A stretch of DNA of 64,000 bases from Chryseobacterium sediminis (lineage in GTDB: Bacteria > Bacteroidota > Bacteroidia > Flavobacteriales > Weeksellaceae), in the NCBI RefSeq assembly GCF_008386505.1, contig NZ_VUNZ01000003.1:124001-188000 (forward strand), written 5' to 3'. The notes below the pieces were generated by a model. It did no database searches. It had not been told where the DNA came from and worked only from the letters and a program-made list of their open reading frames with translations. Positions 16,388 to 24,754 of this stretch are shown piece after piece (position 1 is the first letter of the stretch; every line of letters begins with the position of its first letter). A program made the position numbers and the translations under genes.

Positions 16388-17254
16388 ATGCTCTCTAACT
16401 CTCCAACCCACAAACCCTCCAAGGTTCCAACTTACTCAATCAATTGTAACGGCCGTTTAGTACAGCTTGATACGCCAAAGATCATGGGAATCCTCAATCT
16501 GACACCGGATTCTTTCTCTGACGGCGGGAAATTCAATACCGAAAAAGCAGCTCTGGAGCATGCCGAAAAACTATTGAAAGAAGGTGCGGAAATACTGGAT
16601 ATCGGACCTCAGTCTACACGTCCTAACGCTGAGTTTCTAAGTGCCGAGGAAGAGATAAGCAGAATCGGAAATATTATTTCTCTGATTAAAAAAGAATTTC
16701 CGGAAGCCTTGATTTCCCTTGATACCTTTTATGCAGCAACAGTAAAGTTTGGTTTCAATGAAGGAATTGATCTGATTAATGATATTTCAGGTGGTCAATA
16801 TGATGCAGAAATGTTTGATGCAGCAGCTGAAACGAAACTTCCTTACATTTTGATGCATGTGAATCCTTCTTATGATACCATGCATGATAAGATCAGATTT
16901 GAAGATATAACAGTAGAAGTTAACAGATATTTTTCCCAAAAAACAAAAGAACTTTTAGAAAAAGGAGTAAATGATATTATCCTTGATCCCGGTTTTGGAT
17001 TCGGGAAAACAGTAGAAGATCAGATGAAAATGATTCATGAGGTTGACTATCTCGGATTTGGAAGGTTTCCTTTGTTAATCGGTATTTCCAGGAAGTCGTT
17101 TATTTACAAACCGCTGGGGAAATCACCTTTGGATATCAATGAAGAAACACAGAAACTGCATAGGAAAGTTTTGGAACAGGGAGCAAAGATTTTAAGGGTT
17201 CATGATGTGGCTCAGGCAAAGGAAACGCTTATTGATTTTTTACGAAAAAAATAA
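16388..17254 (+). CDS. folP: Dihydropteroate synthase
   Basis: FolP condenses p-aminobenzoate with dihydropterin pyrophosphate in folate synthesis and is the sulfonamide target. The TIM barrel begins at about residue 30: MGILNLTPDSFSDGGKF, then DIGPQSTRPNA, LINDISGG, ILDPGFGFGK and LIGISRKSF. The protein is 288 aa. The first ~17 residues (rich in Ser, Pro, Thr, Lys) lie outside the family core and are encoded by sequence resembling the intergenic repeat phrases. No later in-frame ATG exists before the barrel, so the start at 16388 is retained. Confidence 0.96.
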   Translation: MLSNSPTHKPSKVPTYSINCNGRLVQLDTPKIMGILNLTPDSFSDGGKFNTEKAALEHAEKLLKEGAEILDIGPQSTRPNAEFLSAEEEISRIGNIISLIKKEFPEALISLDTFYAATVKFGFNEGIDLINDISGGQYDAEMFDAAAETKLPYILMHVNPSYDTMHDKIRFEDITVEVNRYFSQKTKELLEKGVNDIILDPGFGFGKTVEDQMKMIHEVDYLGFGRFPLLIGISRKSFIYKPLGKSPLDINEETQKLHRKVLEQGAKILRVHDVAQAKETLIDFLRKK

Positions 17255-17270
17255 AAAGTGCGAAAAAAAC

Positions 17271-17300
17271 TTGTGAGTAATTAAAAAGTTTATACATTTG
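17271..17300 (+). promoter_or_regulatory. Promoter of the ilv leader/operon
   Basis: TTG at 17271-17273, a 19-base spacer and TACATTTG at 17293-17300 fit the Bacteroidetes sigma consensus (TTTG/TTG, about 19 bases, TAnnTTTG). If the -7 box is centred seven bases before the start site, transcription begins at about 17304, one base before the first leader ATG. Confidence 0.65.
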
Positions 17301-17304
17301 CAGT

Positions 17305-17388
17305 ATGAATTTTACGAATCAGAAAAATATTATTGTCATTTCTATTATTGCTGCTGTCATTAACAGCAGGAAGGAAGCGGCATTTTAA
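17305..17388 (+). CDS. ilv operon leader peptide 1 (27 aa, Ile/Val-rich)
   Basis: A 27-codon ORF beginning MNFTNQKN, with codons 9-19 reading I-I-V-I-S-I-I-A-A-V-I. It contains six Ile and two Val codons but no Leu. It lies directly behind the promoter and ends 27 bases before a perfect terminator stem. This is the structure of an attenuator leader peptide: slow translation when Ile-tRNA or Val-tRNA is uncharged would leave the ribosome stalled on codons 9-19. A self-complementary segment (17351-17357 with 17363-17369) falls over codons 16-22 and may act as the pause hairpin. Too short for routine annotation; identified from context. Confidence 0.82.
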   Translation: MNFTNQKNIIVISIIAAVINSRKEAAF

Positions 17389-17424
17389 ATAGATTTTAAT
17401 TTAAATTATATATAGAACCGTTTC
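17374..17424 (+). promoter_or_regulatory. Candidate antiterminator of attenuator 1
   Basis: GAAGCGG at 17374-17380, in the last codons of leader 1, can pair with CCGTTTC at 17418-17424, the 5' arm of the terminator (seven pairs, one G-U). A ribosome reaching the stop codon would cover the first strand and allow termination; one stalled on the Ile/Val run would leave it free. Confidence 0.55.
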
Positions 17425-17446
17425 AAATTATGAAACGGTTTTTTTT
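17416..17446 (+). terminator. Attenuator 1 terminator
   Basis: A perfect ten-base-pair stem (AACCGTTTCA / TGAAACGGTT), five-base loop AATTA and a T-run. It lies between leader peptides 1 and 2 with no gene of normal size upstream of it in the transcript, so it must be a conditional terminator or the leader would be a dead end. Confidence 0.88.
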
Positions 17447-17469
17447 GTTTTAATTTTTATAGTAAAAAT

Positions 17470-17532
17470 ATGTATCAGTTATTATCAGTATCAGTAATTA
17501 TTATCGTCATTATTATTCCCTTGCGTCTGTGA
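17470..17532 (+). CDS. ilv operon leader peptide 2 (20 aa, Leu/Ile/Val-rich)
   Basis: A 20-codon ORF reading MYQLLSVSVIIIVIIIPLRL: six Ile, three Val and four Leu codons out of 20. It starts 24 bases after the attenuator 1 T-run and its stop codon lies 30 bases before a second terminator. The composition recalls the ilvL leader of enterobacteria, which also ends its Ile/Val run with proline. Together with leader 1 it makes a tandem arrangement. Very short, but the density of branched-chain codons is far above chance and the placement is exact. Confidence 0.85.
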   Translation: MYQLLSVSVIIIVIIIPLRL

Positions 17533-17575
17533 GAAGGAAGATGTATGACTGTACATATATTGAGCCCTCTCACAG
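17527..17575 (+). promoter_or_regulatory. Candidate antiterminator of attenuator 2
   Basis: CTGTGAGA at 17527-17534 includes the stop codon of leader 2 and is perfectly complementary over eight bases to TCTCACAG at 17568-17575, which contains most of the 5' arm and the loop of the second terminator. The two pairings exclude each other, the hallmark of a translation-coupled attenuator. Confidence 0.7.
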
Positions 17576-17594
17576 CGTGAGAGGGCTTTTTTTA
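17563..17594 (+). terminator. Attenuator 2 terminator
   Basis: An 11-base-pair stem (AGCCCTCTCAC / GTGAGAGGGCT) with a three-base AGC loop and a run of T. It is GC-rich and stronger than attenuator 1. It lies 35 bases before the ilvE start codon. Confidence 0.9.
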
Positions 17595-17628
17595 TTCCCT
17601 TTTGTTAATTTTTATAAACCTCTATAAC

Positions 17629-18501
17629 ATGTATTACAACGACGACACGACCATCTATTTTGACGGAAAATTTATGAAAGCGAAAGATGCCGGAACAGAT
17701 CTCTATGGACAATCACTTCACTATGGTTACTCTGTTTTTGAAGGAATTAAATCCTACAGCACAGATCACGGAACCCAGATTTTCAAAGCAAAAGAACATT
17801 ACGAAAGACTAAAAAGATCAGCTGAATTGATGCACATTCCCTTCGATTATTCCGTGAACCAGCTTACAGAACTTACTTATGAACTTCTGGATCGTAATGG
17901 CTTTACTGATGCTTATATCCGTCCGTTGGTAACGTGTTCACCCAATATGTCACTTTCAAAAGGTCAAAAATCTTACTTATCTCTTCTTGCCTGGGAATGG
18001 AATAACGGCTATCTGGCAGATAAAATGAAAATCATGACGTCCCCTTTTCAACGTCCAAATCCTAAGGCATTTAAAGTGGAAGCCAAAGTAGGAGGGCATT
18101 ATGTAAACTCAATATTGGCCTGTCAGGATGCCAAAGACAAAGGGTATGATGAAGCGTTGGTTTTGGATGAAAACGGAAACGTTGCCGAGAGTTCCGGAGC
18201 CAATGTTTTCTACGAAAAAGACGGAACTTTATTTACTCCGGGCAAAGGAAGTATTCTTCCGGGAATCACAAGGCAAACGGTTTTTGAAATCTGTGAGGAG
18301 CTTGATATTCCGGTTAAAGAATCCTTTTTCAAACCTGAAGAAATGCGCGGTGCAGATGCTGGTTTTTTCTGTGGTACAGCAGCGGAAATAGTTGCCTTGG
18401 ATTCCCTTGATGATGTCCCTTTCACCAAAAACTGGGAAAACACTGCAAGTGGAAGAGTACAGCAGGCATATTTGAAATTGGTAAGAGTTCTGTCATTGTA
18501 G
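17629..18501 (+). CDS. ilvE: Branched-chain amino acid aminotransferase
   Basis: PLP fold-type IV transaminase that makes Val, Ile and Leu from their 2-keto acids with glutamate. The protein is 290 aa from the ATG at 17629; an in-frame TTG at 17602 lies just after the terminator and is less likely. Signatures: GYSVFEGIKSY near residue 35, the PLP Lys in VEAKVGGHYVNS (about residue 150), and DENGNVAESSGANVF. It is the first structural gene behind the tandem attenuators, unusual in that the last step of the pathway is encoded first. Confidence 0.96.
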   Translation: MYYNDDTTIYFDGKFMKAKDAGTDLYGQSLHYGYSVFEGIKSYSTDHGTQIFKAKEHYERLKRSAELMHIPFDYSVNQLTELTYELLDRNGFTDAYIRPLVTCSPNMSLSKGQKSYLSLLAWEWNNGYLADKMKIMTSPFQRPNPKAFKVEAKVGGHYVNSILACQDAKDKGYDEALVLDENGNVAESSGANVFYEKDGTLFTPGKGSILPGITRQTVFEICEELDIPVKESFFKPEEMRGADAGFFCGTAAEIVALDSLDDVPFTKNWENTASGRVQQAYLKLVRVLSL

Positions 18502-18581
18502 ATTTTTAGAATTTAAATAATTAATTATCAGTTAAATACATCTGTTTTTCAAACAATTGAATATTGTAGTTTTTATAAAAA

Positions 18582-18662
18582 ATGAAAATGAAAAGAATCT
18601 TACAAGATGTAGTTTTGGATCGGAATTTAGTAAAGAACTCCTTTTTTAAGAAAGGAAAATAA
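18582..18662 (+). CDS. Possible 26-aa ORF between ilvE and ilvD
   Basis: In the 167-base gap between ilvE and ilvD a short ORF starts MKMKRILQDVVLDRNLV and ends six bases before the ilvD ATG. It has one Ile, three Leu and three Val codons, not a convincing run, and no terminator follows it. It may be translated for coupling into ilvD, or be chance. The rest of the gap is AT-rich without clear structure. Confidence 0.25.
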   Translation: MKMKRILQDVVLDRNLVKNSFFKKGK

Positions 18663-18668
18663 TAGAAA

Positions 18669-20363
18669 ATGCGGAAAAGTATGTTAAATAAATATTCAAA
18701 AACTTTCACACAAAACAATGAACAGCCTGCAGCCAAAGCAATGTTGTACGGGATAGGTTTTACGGAAGAAGATATGCAAAAAGCTCAGATTGGGATTGCT
18801 AGTATGGGTTATGATGGAAATACCTGCAATATGCATTTGAATGATCTGGCTCAGGTTGTAAAAAAGGGAACATGGAATCATGGGTTAGCCGGATTAATTT
18901 TTAACACAATTGGCGTAAGTGACGGAATGAGCAACGGAACAGACGGAATGCGCTATTCACTGGTGAGCCGTGATGTAATTGCAGACAGTATTGAAGCCAT
19001 CTGTGGAGCCCAATACTACGACGGATTAATCGCATTGCCAGGCTGCGACAAAAATATGCCAGGAACTATTATCGCAATGGGAAGACTAGACAGGCCATCT
19101 ATCATGGTGTATGGAGGAACTATTGCTCCCGGCTGCTACAAAGGAGAACAGCTTAATATCGTTTCTGCATTTGAAGCGTTGGGAAAAAAGATTGCTGGAG
19201 AAATCACAGAGGAAGATTTTGATGGAGTGGTGAAAAATTCCTGTCCGGGAGCCGGAGCATGTGGAGGAATGTATACTGCCAATACCATGGCTTCCGCCAT
19301 AGAAGCACTAGGAATGAGTCTTCCGTATTCCTCCTCAAATCCTGCTTTAAGCAAAGAAAAACAGGAAGAATGCCATGAAGCAGGAAGATATCTGAAAATA
19401 TTACTGGAAAAAGACATCAAACCTTCAGATATCATGACCCGGAAAGCGTTTGAAAATGCCCTTCGTATGATTGTTATTCTGGGAGGAAGTACCAATGCGG
19501 TTCTGCATTTCATAGCTATGGCAAAAAGTGTAGGAGTACCTCTGGATCAGGATGATTTTCAAAAGATGAGTGATTGCACTCCTGTACTGGCAGACCTTAA
19601 ACCAAGCGGAAAGTATCTGATGCAGGACCTGTATGAACACGGAGGAATACCATCAGTAATGAAATATCTTTTAAAAGAGGGATTATTACATGGAGACTGC
19701 TTAACGGTAACCGGAAAAACATTAGCCGAAAATTTAGAAAATGTTCCCGATCTGGATTTTAATACACAGAAAATCATAAAACCTCTTTCAGAACCTGTAA
19801 AAGCTACCGGACATCTGAGAATACTGTACGGAAACCTTGCTGAAAAAGGAAGCGTGGCGAAAATCACAGGAAAAGAAGGCGAACGTTTCGTAGGGAAAGC
19901 CCGTGTATTTGATGGTGAAAAAAATTTGATCAGAGGAATTCAGGATGGAACCGTACAACATGGTGATGTCATTGTCATCCGAAATGAAGGCCCGAAAGGA
20001 GCCCCTGGAATGCCGGAAATGCTGAAACCTACAAGTGCGCTGATTGGAGCAGGTCTGGGAAACAGTGTTGCTTTAATTACGGACGGCAGATTTAGCGGAG
20101 GAACCCATGGTTTTGTAGTGGGACATATTACTCCGGAAGCTCACGAAGGAGGTCTGATAGCCTTTGTAAACGATAATGACCTGATTGAAATAGACGCGGT
20201 AAACAATACCATACAGCTCAAAGTTTCAGATGAAGAAATTGAAAGAAGAAAAAAAGACTGGCAAAAACCAGCTCTTAAAGTACAGAAAGGACTGCTTTAT
20301 AAATATGCATTAACAGTATCATCGGCTGCTGAAGGCTGTGTAACGGACGAAATCACTCAATAA
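18669..20363 (+). CDS. ilvD: Dihydroxy-acid dehydratase
   Basis: Fe-S enzyme dehydrating 2,3-dihydroxy-isovalerate and its homologue to the keto acids used by IlvE. At 564 aa it has normal length. Conserved cluster cysteines are in GCDKNMPGT (about 123), [12 protein letters not shown] (about 195) and the family motifs [15 protein letters not shown] and [15 protein letters not shown] are present. A second ATG four codons in is an equally good start. The ilvB gene begins six bases after its stop. Confidence 0.97.
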
Positions 20364-20369
20364 AAGTAT

Positions 20370-22094
20370 ATGGAAAACCCGAATTTATCTACAGAAATAC
20401 AACTTAGCGGTAGCCGCATCATTCTTGAAGCTTTTCTTCAGGAAGGTGTGAAAACAGTTTTCGGATATCCTGGTGGGGCTATTATTCCTATTTATGATGC
20501 CCTTTATGACTATCGGGAGACACTGAAACATATTTTGGTACGTCATGAGCAGGCAGCAGTACATGCAGCACAAGGTTTGGCAAGAGTATCAGGAGATGTC
20601 GGTGTTGTACTGGCAACCAGCGGTCCCGGAGCAACCAATCTTGTTACAGGATTAGCAGATGCTCTGTTAGACAATACGCCTTTGGTTTGCATTACAGGAC
20701 AGGTTTTTGAACATCTTCTGGGAACCGATGCCTTTCAGGAAATAGATGTAATGAATGTTACAAGCCCTGTTACCAAATGGAATTATCAGGTTACCGATGC
20801 CAATGAGCTTCCCGAAGTACTGGCAAAAGCATTCTACATTGCAAAATCAGGCCGTCCGGGTCCTGTATTGATTGATGTTACTAAAAATGCCCAGTTGCAG
20901 TCTGTTGATTATAAAGGATATTCTCCATGTCATTCATTGAGAAGTTATAAACCAAATCCTGATCCATGTTTTGAAAGTATTGAAAAAGCAGCACTACTGA
21001 TTAATGAGGCAGAAAGACCATTTATTATTGCCGGACAGGGGATTATGTTGGGAAAAGCTGAAAAAGAATTTTTAGAGTTTGCCGAAAAATCAGGAATTCC
21101 GGTGGCATGGACGGTTTTAGGAATGAGCGCTATTCCTACCGATCATTCACAAGCCGTGGGGATGGTGGGGATGCACGGAAACTATGGACCCAATATATTA
21201 ACCAACGAATGTGATGTTTTGATTGCTGTCGGAATGCGCTTCGATGACCGTGTGACAGGCAGGTTGGATCAGTATGCGAAACAGGCGAAAATCATTCATC
21301 TGGATATAGATAAGGCAGAGATTAATAAAAATGTAATAGTGGATGTTCCGGTTCTTGGAAACTGTAAACATACACTTCCATTCCTTACAAAATGGATTAC
21401 AAAAAGAGAATATCCGGAATGGCATGAAAAATTTAAAAACTGTCATGAAATTGAAAGTATCAACCTCATCAATAGTGAGTTGTATCCCGAAGAAGGAGAA
21501 ATTACAATGGGAGAAGTTATCCGTTATCTGAATGAGATGACAGCAGGGGAGGCGGTAATTGTAACAGATGTGGGACAGCATCAGATGGCAACATGCCGTT
21601 ATTCTAAATTTAAGAATTCCCGTACCAATGTAACAAGTGGCGGATTGGGAACCATGGGATTTTGTCTTCCTGCAGCAATAGGAGCATCCTATGCAGAAAC
21701 TGGCCGTCCTGTAATTGCTGTCATGGGAGATGGAGGGGCTCAAATGAATATTCAGGAATTGGGAACTATTATGCAGTATCATCCGGAGGTCAAAATTTTA
21801 ATCCTTAATAACTGCTATCTGGGAATGGTAAGACAGTGGCAGGAATTGTTTCATCAGGAAAGATATTCCTCAGTGGATATTCAGAGTCCTGACTTTGTTC
21901 AGGTGGCAAAAGGATATAATATTCCGGGCAGCAGGGTTACTGAAAGAGAAGAATTGAAATGGGCACTTCGGGAAATGCTTGATCACAAAGGATCTTTTCT
22001 TCTTGAAGTGATGACAGGAAAAGAACACAACGTATTCCCAATGATTCCTCAGGGGAAAAGTGTTTCTGAAATTGTATTAAATAATAAAGGTTAA
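20370..22094 (+). CDS. ilvB: Acetolactate synthase, large (catalytic) subunit
   Basis: ThDP/FAD enzyme for the first common step of Val/Ile synthesis (acetolactate and acetohydroxybutyrate). The 574-aa protein shows the ThDP catalytic Glu in RHEQAAVHAAQGLAR (about residue 55), the central FAD-binding domain and the C-terminal ThDP-binding motif GDGGAQMNIQELGTI ending in NN (about 456-485). The regulatory subunit ilvN follows after ten bases. The alternative of a catabolic acetolactate synthase (AlsS) is excluded by the operon context. Confidence 0.97.
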   Translation: MENPNLSTEIQLSGSRIILEAFLQEGVKTVFGYPGGAIIPIYDALYDYRETLKHILVRHEQAAVHAAQGLARVSGDVGVVLATSGPGATNLVTGLADALLDNTPLVCITGQVFEHLLGTDAFQEIDVMNVTSPVTKWNYQVTDANELPEVLAKAFYIAKSGRPGPVLIDVTKNAQLQSVDYKGYSPCHSLRSYKPNPDPCFESIEKAALLINEAERPFIIAGQGIMLGKAEKEFLEFAEKSGIPVAWTVLGMSAIPTDHSQAVGMVGMHGNYGPNILTNECDVLIAVGMRFDDRVTGRLDQYAKQAKIIHLDIDKAEINKNVIVDVPVLGNCKHTLPFLTKWITKREYPEWHEKFKNCHEIESINLINSELYPEEGEITMGEVIRYLNEMTAGEAVIVTDVGQHQMATCRYSKFKNSRTNVTSGGLGTMGFCLPAAIGASYAETGRPVIAVMGDGGAQMNIQELGTIMQYHPEVKILILNNCYLGMVRQWQELFHQERYSSVDIQSPDFVQVAKGYNIPGSRVTEREELKWALREMLDHKGSFLLEVMTGKEHNVFPMIPQGKSVSEIVLNNKG

Positions 22095-22104
22095 AAATAA
22101 AAAG

Positions 22105-22386
22105 ATGAAAACAGATCATAAAGAATATACCATTACGGCGTATACAGAAGATTATTTAGGATTGATAGGACGGATCAATGCTATTTTTTCAAGAAGAAGA
22201 ATTTCTATGGTGACCTTCAATGTAGGTCCTTCGGAAATGGAAAAAGTAAAGAAGTTTGTTATTGTGATCAGGGAAACAGAGGATTCCGTTCAGAAGATCA
22301 GCAGACAAATGGAAAAACAGGTAGATGTTTTGGAAGTACATTATCACAGAAATCCATACCTGACGGCAGTAGAATATGCCAGTTAA
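22105..22386 (+). CDS. ilvN: Acetolactate synthase, short regulatory subunit (ACT domain only)
   Basis: The 93-aa protein contains a single ACT domain (about 7-80): TITAYTEDYLGLIGRINAIFSRRRI, then FVIVIRETED. ACT domains of this subunit bind valine for feedback inhibition and stabilise IlvB. Many bacterial and flavobacterial IlvN/IlvH proteins are 160-190 aa with a second C-terminal domain. Here the stop follows directly after the first domain, and no remnant of the second is seen in the 47 bases before ilvC. The result is closer in size to enteric IlvM. Confidence 0.9.
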   Translation: MKTDHKEYTITAYTEDYLGLIGRINAIFSRRRISMVTFNVGPSEMEKVKKFVIVIRETEDSVQKISRQMEKQVDVLEVHYHRNPYLTAVEYAS

Positions 22387-22433
22387 ACATAAAAATTAAA
22401 CATCATAATCAATAATTATAAAATCAAAAAAAA

Positions 22434-23480
22434 ATGGCAAAATTGAATTTTGGAGGAGTAGAAGAGAACGTAGTAACGAGAGAAGAATTTCCGTTGGAAA
22501 AAGCTCAGGAAGTATTAAAAAATGAAGTTGTAGCAGTAATTGGATATGGCGTACAGGGACCCGGACAGGCTTTGAACCAGAAAGATAACGGAATTAACGT
22601 CATCGTAGGACAAAGAAAGAACTCCAAATCATGGGATAAGGCATTAGCAGACGGATTTGTACCGGGAGAAACTTTATTTGAAATCGAAGAAGCACTAGAA
22701 AAAGGAACCATTATCTGCTACCTTCTGAGTGATGCAGCACAAATCGAATACTGGCCAAAAGTAAAACAGCATCTTACCCCAGGAAAAGCTTTGTATTTCT
22801 CTCATGGTTTCGGAATCACCTTCAGCGAACGCACAGGAATTGTTCCTCCAGCTGATGTGGATGTATTTCTGGTAGCACCAAAAGGTTCAGGAACCTCATT
22901 GAGAAGAATGTTTCTCCAAGACAGAGGTTTGAACAGCAGTTTTGCCGTTTATCAGGATGCAACAGGAAAAGCAAGAGAAAGAGTAACCGCGTTGGGAATT
23001 GCAATAGGAAGCGGATATCTGTTTGAAACAGACTTTAAAAAAGAAGTATACAGCGACCTTGCCGGAGAAAGAGGAACATTGATGGGAGCTGTACAGGGAA
23101 TATTTGCCGCTCAGTATGATGTATTGAGAAAAAACGGACACAGCCCTTCGGAAGCCTTTAACGAAACCGTAGAAGAATTAACTCAGTCATTAATGCCTTT
23201 AGTTGCAGAAAACGGGATGGACTGGATGTACGCCAACTGCAGTACCACCGCTCAAAGAGGGGCATTGGACTGGTGGAAGCGTTTCAGAGATGCTACTTCA
23301 CCTTTGTTTGAAGAGTTGTATGACAATGTAGCCAAAGGAAACGAAGCACAACGATCCATTGATAGCAACAGCAAACCGGATTATCGTGAAAAATTAGAAG
23401 CTGAACTTACCGAGCTGAGAGAAAGCGAAATGTGGAAAGCAGGTAAAACAGTACGTAGTCTGCGACCTGAAAATAATTAA
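22434..23480 (+). CDS. ilvC: Ketol-acid reductoisomerase, class I
   Basis: NADPH- and Mg-dependent isomerisation and reduction of acetolactate to dihydroxy-isovalerate. The 348-aa protein has the Rossmann motif GYGVQGPGQALN near residue 38; an Arg/Lys/Ser-rich loop (GQRKNSKSW) follows and is typical for NADPH preference. The knotted C-terminal domain holds the metal ligands (SDLAGERGTLMGAV, about 203; ENGMDWMYANCSTTAQRGALDWW). The single C-terminal domain length places it in class I. Confidence 0.96.
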   Translation: MAKLNFGGVEENVVTREEFPLEKAQEVLKNEVVAVIGYGVQGPGQALNQKDNGINVIVGQRKNSKSWDKALADGFVPGETLFEIEEALEKGTIICYLLSDAAQIEYWPKVKQHLTPGKALYFSHGFGITFSERTGIVPPADVDVFLVAPKGSGTSLRRMFLQDRGLNSSFAVYQDATGKARERVTALGIAIGSGYLFETDFKKEVYSDLAGERGTLMGAVQGIFAAQYDVLRKNGHSPSEAFNETVEELTQSLMPLVAENGMDWMYANCSTTAQRGALDWWKRFRDATSPLFEELYDNVAKGNEAQRSIDSNSKPDYREKLEAELTELRESEMWKAGKTVRSLRPENN

Positions 23481-23491
23481 TACTTAAACAG

Positions 23492-24754
23492 ATGATGAAA
23501 GAGGGAATAAGTTCCTCCGTTTTGGAGAATGTCTATAAAGCGGAGGAGCGATTAAAAAATGTAGTGGTAAAAACACCTTTGGCGGTCAACAATAATTTGT
23601 CCGCCATTTATGAAGCGAATATCCGTTTCAAAAGAGAAGACCTTCAAAGAGTAAGATCCTATAAAATCAGAGGAGCCTACAACAAAATGGCAACCATGTC
23701 TGAGAGCGAACTTTCAAAAGGAGTGGTTTGTGCCAGTGCCGGAAATCATGCACAGGGAGTTGCTTTTGCCTGCCATGCAATGAAAGTGAAAGGGACTATT
23801 TTTATGCCTTTACCTACACCTGGACAAAAATTAGAGCAGGTGAAAATGTTTGGAGGAGAATATATTGATGTTATTTTGTTCGGAGATACGTTTGATGCAG
23901 CCAAAGATGCTGCGCTGAGGTTTAGCAAAGACAATCACAGTGCATTTATTCACCCTTTTGACGATCCGGCAATTATTGAAGGACAGGCTACAACAGCACT
24001 CGAAATTCTGGAGCAGGCTGAAGGTATTGTCGATTATCTTTTTGTTCCGATAGGCGGTGGCGGACTGGCGGCAGGAATCTGTACAGTATTTCAACATTTG
24101 TCTCCTCAAACAAAGATTATTGGGGTAGAGCCTTCTGCCGCTGCAAGTATGAAAAAAGCACTGGAGAAAGGAAAGCCGGTACTTCTTGAAAAGATAAGCC
24201 GTTTTGTAGATGGAGCTGCAGTACAGCAAGTGGGAGATATTACTTTTGATCGCTGTAAAAATATCCTGCACGATATGGCTACAGTAGAGGAAGGCGTAGT
24301 CTGCGAGACCATTTTGTCATTGTATAATAAAGATGCTATCGTGGTAGAACCTGCGGGAGCCCTTTCGGTGGCTGCATTGGAAAAATACAGAGAGGAAATA
24401 AAAGGTAAAAATGTAGTATGTATCATCAGCGGAAGCAATAATGATATCACCCGTATGGAAGAAATCAAAGAAAAAGCGTTGCTTTATGCAGGATTAAAAC
24501 ACTATTTCCTGGTCAGATTTCCACAACGTCCGGGTGCATTGAAAACTTTTGTAATGGATGTATTGGGACCTGATGACGATATTACTTATTTCGAGTACAC
24601 CCAGAAAAATTCAAAAGAAAAAGGAATTGCAGTCGTAGGAATTGCTTTAAAACAAAACAAAGACTTCACTCCATTGATTGATAAGATGAAACAACACGAC
24701 TTTTTTGTCAACTATCTGAACAATGATCCATCGCTGATGAATTTACTTATTTAA
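23492..24754 (+). CDS. ilvA: Threonine dehydratase (biosynthetic)
   Basis: PLP enzyme converting threonine to 2-oxobutyrate, the entry to isoleucine synthesis. The 420-aa protein has the PLP Lys in RVRSYKIRGAYNKM (about residue 58), the phosphate loop in PIGGGGLAAGI and a C-terminal regulatory ACT-like domain (about 330-420) beginning LKHYFLVRFPQRPGALKTF. This is the shorter form with one regulatory domain. It is the last gene of the operon, 11 bases after ilvC. Confidence 0.95.
   Translation: MMKEGISSSVLENVYKAEERLKNVVVKTPLAVNNNLSAIYEANIRFKREDLQRVRSYKIRGAYNKMATMSESELSKGVVCASAGNHAQGVAFACHAMKVKGTIFMPLPTPGQKLEQVKMFGGEYIDVILFGDTFDAAKDAALRFSKDNHSAFIHPFDDPAIIEGQATTALEILEQAEGIVDYLFVPIGGGGLAAGICTVFQHLSPQTKIIGVEPSAAASMKKALEKGKPVLLEKISRFVDGAAVQQVGDITFDRCKNILHDMATVEEGVVCETILSLYNKDAIVVEPAGALSVAALEKYREEIKGKNVVCIISGSNNDITRMEEIKEKALLYAGLKHYFLVRFPQRPGALKTFVMDVLGPDDDITYFEYTQKNSKEKGIAVVGIALKQNKDFTPLIDKMKQHDFFVNYLNNDPSLMNLLI

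Follow-up and report, generated by a model that had tools for sequence, protein, structure and literature searches.

A 64,000-nucleotide (nt) stretch of the Chryseobacterium sediminis genome (contig NZ_VUNZ01000003.1, positions 124,001 to 188,000; hereafter the window) carries an ilv operon downstream of folP, and the 375-nt gap between folP and ilvE contains a single Bacteroidota-type promoter followed by two attenuator modules in series. Each module consists of a short open reading frame (ORF) with a run of isoleucine (Ile) and valine (Val) codons, in one case with leucine (Leu), an antiterminator arm at or beside the stop codon, and a perfect intrinsic terminator with a U-run (Table 1). This two-module arrangement is real and far above chance. 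Judged from sequence, it probably constitutes two complete ribosome-mediated transcription attenuators placed one behind the other under a single promoter.

Two attenuator modules in the folP–ilvE gap

A first, sequence-only reading of the window had proposed the promoter, both leader ORFs and both terminators, and all of these elements were located where it had placed them. Its second terminator, given as 17563–17594, is present, but the U-run stops one nucleotide earlier and position 17594 is an A. Eight of the 27 residues of leader 1 are Ile or Val and none is Leu; Ile, Leu and Val (I/L/V) together make up 13 of the 20 residues of leader 2.

Table 1 Position and composition of the leader elements and downstream ilv genes
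Feature	Position	Strand	Remarks
Promoter	17271–17300	+	TTG box 17271–17273, 19-nt spacer, TAnnTTTG box 17293–17300 (TACATTTG)
Leader ORF 1, MNFTNQKNIIVISIIAAVINSRKEAAF and stop	17305–17388	+	Ile and Val codons, no Leu; ATG in 67/68 aligned loci
Hairpin inside leader 1	17351–17369	+	17351–17357 with 17363–17369; −8.7 kcal/mol, z −4.0
Antiterminator arm 1 (GAAGCGG)	17374–17380	+	Pairs with 17418–17424; 7 pairs, one G-U
Intrinsic terminator 1	17416–17446	+	Ten Watson-Crick pairs, 17416–17425 with 17431–17440; U-run to 17446
Leader ORF 2, MYQLLSVSVIIIVIIIPLRL and stop	17470–17532	+	Ile, Val and Leu codons; conserved core
Antiterminator arm 2 (CTGTGAGAAGG)	17527–17537	+	Spans stop codon; pairs with 17565–17575
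Intrinsic terminator 2	17562–17593	+	Stem 17562–17588; U-run to 17593
ilvE, first structural gene	17629–18501	+	NCBIfam TIGR01122 over cut-off
ilvD, ilvB, ilvN, ilvC, ilvA	18669–24754	+	NCBIfam for ilvD, ilvB, ilvC and ilvA
ilvN	Small ORF from 22106	+	Assigned by position only

The two alternative folds of each module are close in energy. Terminator 1 folds at −13.4 kcal/mol (z −5.1) and, with the 3′ terminator arm removed, antiterminator 1 at −11.3 kcal/mol; the corresponding values are −20.9 (z −6.0) and −22.3 kcal/mol in module 2, where the antiterminator consists of eight pairs, one mismatch and two further pairs. These pairings of the leader end with the 5′ arm of its terminator, already suggested by the earlier reading, each beat shuffled versions of the source sequence (p 0.02 in both cases, 100 shuffles). 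A hairpin within leader 1 adjoins the antiterminator arm without covering it, and is a possible pause or synchronising hairpin. A small hairpin is also present past the stop of leader 2.

A pattern scan of positions 16800–18200 revealed three terminator-like sites, compared with 0.9 (standard deviation 1.1) in shuffled sequence. No Rfam family, T-box included, matches the window at its gathering score. Ten sub-threshold matches fall within 17200–17660, the best being MicF (41.1 of 79 bits), with Phe_leader at 23.1 of 55, and assignment of the array to a known RNA family was rejected on this basis.

Controls and other amino-acid operons

To count modules across genomes, a detector was used that calls a module where a terminator, an I/L/V-rich ORF ending nearby and an antiterminator duplex that outperforms shuffled sequence coincide. 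Searches in two families covered 246 and 397 genomes, and those with an IlvE match were examined; regions sharing an identical last 120 nt were dropped, as were five rows with too little upstream sequence or a missing start (L003, L193, L214, L217 and L303). Among 187 distinct ilvE-upstream regions, 9, 74, 93 and 11 contain zero, one, two and three modules, respectively. Within the last 450 nt alone the numbers are 14, 74, 90 and 9, so that 173 regions have at least one module and 99 at least two. Over the same 450 nt, dinucleotide-preserving shuffles, one per region, gave modules in 0/187, and the reverse strands gave a single module in 1/187 and two or more in 0/187.

We then compared the ilv leaders with those of other biosynthetic operons in 13 of these genomes. 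The his leaders are His-rich, with one leader-terminator unit each, and a His-set version of the detector, serving as positive control, found one module in all 13 hisG-upstream regions. One WWW leader with a terminator is visible by eye before all 13 trp operons. The ilv region, checked in 12 of the 13 genomes, has one module in three, two in eight and three in one. No I/L/V module lies upstream of leuA (0/10). Among 13 pheA-upstream regions, a coarse scan picked up an F-rich leader followed by a terminator in a few cases, and never a double one. Applied to the control regions, the I/L/V detector called a single module in 3/13 his and 1/13 trp regions and never two; these stray calls probably reflect another frame of the leader. 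Since his and trp leaders are single while ilv leaders are often multiple in the same genomes, leader-peptide attenuation appears general here and its tandem form specific to ilv. A tandem habit common to all amino-acid operons of these genomes was accordingly rejected.

These comparisons also bear on whether the short ORFs arose merely by chance in A+T-rich DNA, with the terminators serving another purpose such as ending the folP transcript or producing a small RNA. A+T-rich ORFs are Ile-rich by composition alone, and leader 1 lacks the excess of third-codon-position variation expected of a coding sequence (below). Yet modules are absent from the shuffles and nearly so from the reverse strands, and leader content tracks the operon, being rich in His before his and in Trp before trp. 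We therefore give this explanation almost no weight.

Conservation within the genus

Of 173 genomes assigned to the genus, 122 gave an IlvE match, and the upstream sequence was examined in 95 of these 122, in one case over a shortened stretch; the named relatives are likewise Chryseobacterium. With named contigs included, 99 distinct genus regions were obtained, 73 with two modules and 26 with one. The double arrangement described in the sequence-only reading thus recurs in the genus without being universal. Alignment of 68 distinct two-module loci, to which the conservation figures below refer, shows that both leaders and both stems are retained, as would be expected if that reading was correct, and that the base pairs of both modules are preserved with some two-sided changes.

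Terminator 1 is paired in 676/680 alignment cells (99.4%), with two-sided changes at three pairs, and terminator 2 in 744/748 (99.5%). Antiterminator 1 is paired in 469/476 cells, compared with 28–57% when the arms are slid against one another. Antiterminator 2, counting its conserved mismatch and variable first pair, is paired in 636/748 cells (slid versions 34–60%). Between lineages the arms of terminator and antiterminator co-vary, for example GCCTTTCTCATTC with CGAGTGAGTCAGGCTG and GCCTGTATCAA with GAGTTGATACAG. The hairpin inside leader 1 is paired in 514/544 cells, with two-sided changes at four of eight pairs, although a version shifted by three still pairs at about 70% owing to a triplet repeat. 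In leader 2, the core VIIIVIIIPL and the TGA stop are retained in nearly all or all loci.

The mismatch in antiterminator 2, between positions 17535 and 17567, is unpaired in 68/68 loci (A-C in 48, C-C in 14, T-C in 5 and T-T in 1). Both sides vary and the G that would complete the helix is never found, as if a perfect antiterminator 2 were avoided.

A single promoter and a predicted leaderless start

Promoter boxes were counted with the first version of the detector, which accepts ATG starts only. Of 165 first modules, 112 have a TAnnTTTG box in the 60 nt before them, whereas none of 101 internal modules does, in agreement with the single promoter proposed from the window alone; in multi-module loci the box precedes 79 of 95 first modules. 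Internal promoters were rejected on this count.

Were module 2 to have a start site of its own, the modules would act in parallel rather than in series. A weak sigma-70-like match does lie between them on the + strand (17456–17485), and boxes can be missed, as the 16 of 95 first modules without one illustrate. However, the number of sigma-70-like sites in 16800–18200 equals that in shuffles (6 against 5.3), which makes the scan uninformative, and the sigma-70 consensus is not that of this phylum (PMC9723704, PMC7366714). Terminators are also followed closely by the next ATG, at a median distance of 27 nt. Together with the lack of any internal box, this makes a second promoter highly improbable.

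The distance from TTTG to the ATG of leader 1 is exactly 4 nt in 64 of 73 multi-module genus loci, and the other nine have no matched box. In Flavobacterium psychrophilum, the box occupies positions −12 to −5 and 5.5% of mRNAs are leaderless (PMC9723704). Because this box position places the A of the leader 1 AUG at +1, leader 1 is predicted to be translated from a leaderless AUG.

Similar spacing was seen upstream of trpE in four loci from the same family of genomes (L313–L316, of which L314 belongs to the window genome), where the first ATG of the WWW leader lies 4 nt past a TAnnTTTG box and a second in-frame ATG follows a few codons downstream. The his leaders start about 16–20 nt from the box. 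Leader peptides in this group may commonly be leaderless.

Proposed mechanism and codon logic

In the proposed mechanism, RNA polymerase would transcribe leader 1 with a ribosome trailing behind. When charged Ile and Val tRNAs are ample, the ribosome would reach the stop codon and cover the antiterminator arm, allowing terminator 1 to form and transcription to stop. Were the ribosome to stall on the Ile/Val run, the exposed arm would pair with the 5′ half of the terminator, letting RNA polymerase continue to leader 2 and terminator 2, where the same decision would be repeated. The position of the arm is consistent with this scheme: its median start lies 3 nt ahead of the stop codon, and in 94.5% of 293 modules the start falls within −20 to +6 nt of that codon, so that the arm would be covered by a ribosome at the stop and left free by one stalled at most positions of the Ile run. 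The requirement that both terminators be bypassed, as originally proposed, gains support from the conservation across the 68 loci and from the absence of internal promoter boxes. If the modules are independent, simple arithmetic dictates that read-through would be the product of the two steps: logarithmic sensitivities would add, repression would multiply and the maximum would be lowered. We infer stalling, termination, independence and the product rule, and with them a steeper response of the serial array, from the arrangement of the modules.

Several observations weigh against this reading. The gap between the last I/L/V codon and the arm has a median of 8 nt, with quartiles of −2 and 12, and in a quarter of modules that codon lies at or in the arm. 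Variable columns of leader 1 number 16, 13 and 15 at the three codon positions, with no third-position excess, and those of leader 2 (1, 3 and 5) are too few to judge coding; as codon-position variability does not on its own establish coding, the coding status of the leaders is argued from the ORFs and their content rather than from substitution patterns. The Trp-set detector catches 10 of the 13 trp leaders, indicating that antiterminators are not always visible. The I/L/V detector also errs: L068 and L293 score one module and have two by eye, the second module of L213 is spurious, L086 and L087 score one module without a visible leader, and when GTG and TTG starts are allowed another frame is sometimes taken (G009/L018). 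The first modules of multi-module loci that lack a promoter box belong here as well. Finally, candidate ilvB leaders of Streptomyces reportedly did not act as attenuators when mutated (PMC1262725).

The modules differ in codon content. In the window's clade (68 loci), leader 1 has fractions of 0.21 Ile, 0.11 Val and 0.03 Leu, and leader 2 has 0.35, 0.13 and 0.20. In three-module loci (n = 11), module 1 contains 0.27 Ile, 0.08 Val and 0.08 Leu, and modules 2 and 3 rely almost exclusively on Ile (0.42 and 0.44, with Val and Leu each at most 0.011). This pattern points to a broader interpretation, which we put forward tentatively and at slightly below even likelihood: the ilv leaders of Flavobacteriia may be extendable arrays of serial modules that perform a computation on amino acids, with OR logic within a module and AND logic across modules. 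Leu shortage alone would then fail at module 1 in the window's clade, where leader 1 lacks Leu and leader 2 has it, and Val shortage alone would fail at modules 2 and 3 of three-module loci, leaving Ile as the deciding signal. Array length would tune steepness, and the first module in the window's clade would be started by leaderless initiation.

Distribution and evolution of the arrays

Outside the genus, 18 regions from other genera of the family have zero, one or two modules in 1, 13 and 4 cases. The second family (f3), together with named Flavobacteriaceae, provides 34 regions, with zero to three modules in 5, 5, 13 and 11. In other Bacteroidota (36 regions) the counts for zero, one and two are 3, 30 and 3; on inspection by eye, the L213 double is spurious and those of L199 and L227 appear genuine. 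To gauge the spread beyond Flavobacteriales, 40 regions immediately preceding ilvD were taken from throughout the class: 36 have no module, four have one and none has two, a weak comparison since ilvD is perhaps not the first gene there.

The three-module rows (L160, L205, L206, L209, L215, L223, L224, L225, L232, L279 and L281) include Oceanihabitans sediminis, Aequorivita vitellina, A. sinensis, Bizionia algoritergicola, Marixanthomonas spongiae and Flavobacterium sasangense. In a tree of 79 IlvE proteins, from which L160, L194 and L198 were omitted as short, ten of these rows form one Flavobacteriaceae group (support 99/96). Within each locus, modules 2 and 3 are nearly identical (78–97%, mean 0.89), about as similar as the same module is between species (0.88 and 0.85), and modules 1 and 2 share 43–52% identity. 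Such similarity is consistent either with repeated duplication or with a duplication that was homogenised later. Single modules resemble module 1 (0.47–0.63) and module 2 (0.44–0.65) to a similar degree, which favors neither module of the double as the older one.

The window's own modules share no more than about 50% identity. Duplication followed by drift could give rise to a second copy, and the two-module label changes at least eight times on the IlvE tree, detector mislabels included; one module might accordingly be the working sensor, with the other reduced to a fail-safe terminator or to a decaying relic without sensing function. Such divergence, however, indicates that the modules are old, yet both are intact, and leaders, arms and stems of both are retained across the 68 loci. 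We consider a single working sensor unlikely, and favor two functional attenuators in series.

Two terminator types are common to both families, occurring in other genera of the window's family (L128, L129, L131 and L132) and in Flavobacteriaceae loci of the L205 type: the distal module has the terminator GCCTCCCGAGAAATC(A/T)GGAGGC and the proximal one the GCCTTTCTCA type. Either the array is old or it may have moved with the operon.

Genes of the operon

NCBIfam assignments also cover folP, the upstream neighbor of the array. Between ilvE and ilvD (18502–18668, about 170 nt) lie a small ORF and a U-rich stretch resembling a hairpin. Of the 173 genus genomes, 51 gave no IlvE match at E ≤ 1e-40, and in a few others, such as G084, G052, G128, G035 and G103, the IlvE frame contains a stop, hinting at pathway loss in part of the genus.

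Comparison with known systems

Attenuation is described in textbooks as a single step. The ilv arrays resemble attenuators of the ilvL, hisL and trpL type in having a leader ORF with regulatory codons, an antiterminator competing with an intrinsic terminator, and a biosynthetic operon downstream. They differ in stringing together two or three full modules directed at one amino-acid group, and in that leader 1 is predicted to be leaderless. A classical protector hairpin over the antiterminator arm was not seen either, although no systematic search for one was made in leader 2.

Several studies offer partial parallels. The leader RNA of Salmonella mgtCBR contains two leader ORFs, each subject to a separate attenuation; there the signals are ATP and proline, their effects add up, and neither stem-loop resembles an intrinsic terminator, whereas both ilv leaders are Ile/Val-based, judged by codon content, and end in intrinsic terminators (PMC3641672). 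Lee and Groisman (2012) considered these tandem attenuators unusual, nutrient biosynthesis genes being normally under a single attenuator (PMC3641672). Leader-peptide attenuation before amino-acid operons has been inferred in F. psychrophilum, a member of the same phylum with the same class of mechanism; passages of that study mention no tandem modules, and its text does not contain 'ilv' (PMC9723704). The leader peptide ORF of Sinorhizobium meliloti trpL likewise starts at the 5′ end of the RNA, but in a single attenuator, for trp, and in another phylum (PMC7298713). In some Gammaproteobacteria the rimP leader has a second, upstream terminator (PMC2965389). Leader-peptide attenuation and the mgtCBR tandem are known. 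A serial array of leader peptides with intrinsic terminators for one and the same signal was not found in the literature searched, and an earlier mention is possible, for instance in a 2010 survey of attenuators.

A further parallel is offered by pseudo-cooperative tandem riboswitches such as those for thiamine pyrophosphate, in which independent switches for one ligand are repeated within a leader and a steeper response has been described (PMC9481103). The ilv arrays have no aptamer; here a translating ribosome would read charged tRNA, making them a leader-peptide counterpart of these riboswitches and a case of regulatory RNA evolving through module duplication. Theory has raised the question of response sharpness and leak for single attenuators (PMC1183508). 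Related species carry one, two or three steps before the same operon, a natural series in which sharpness and leak can be tested against step number.
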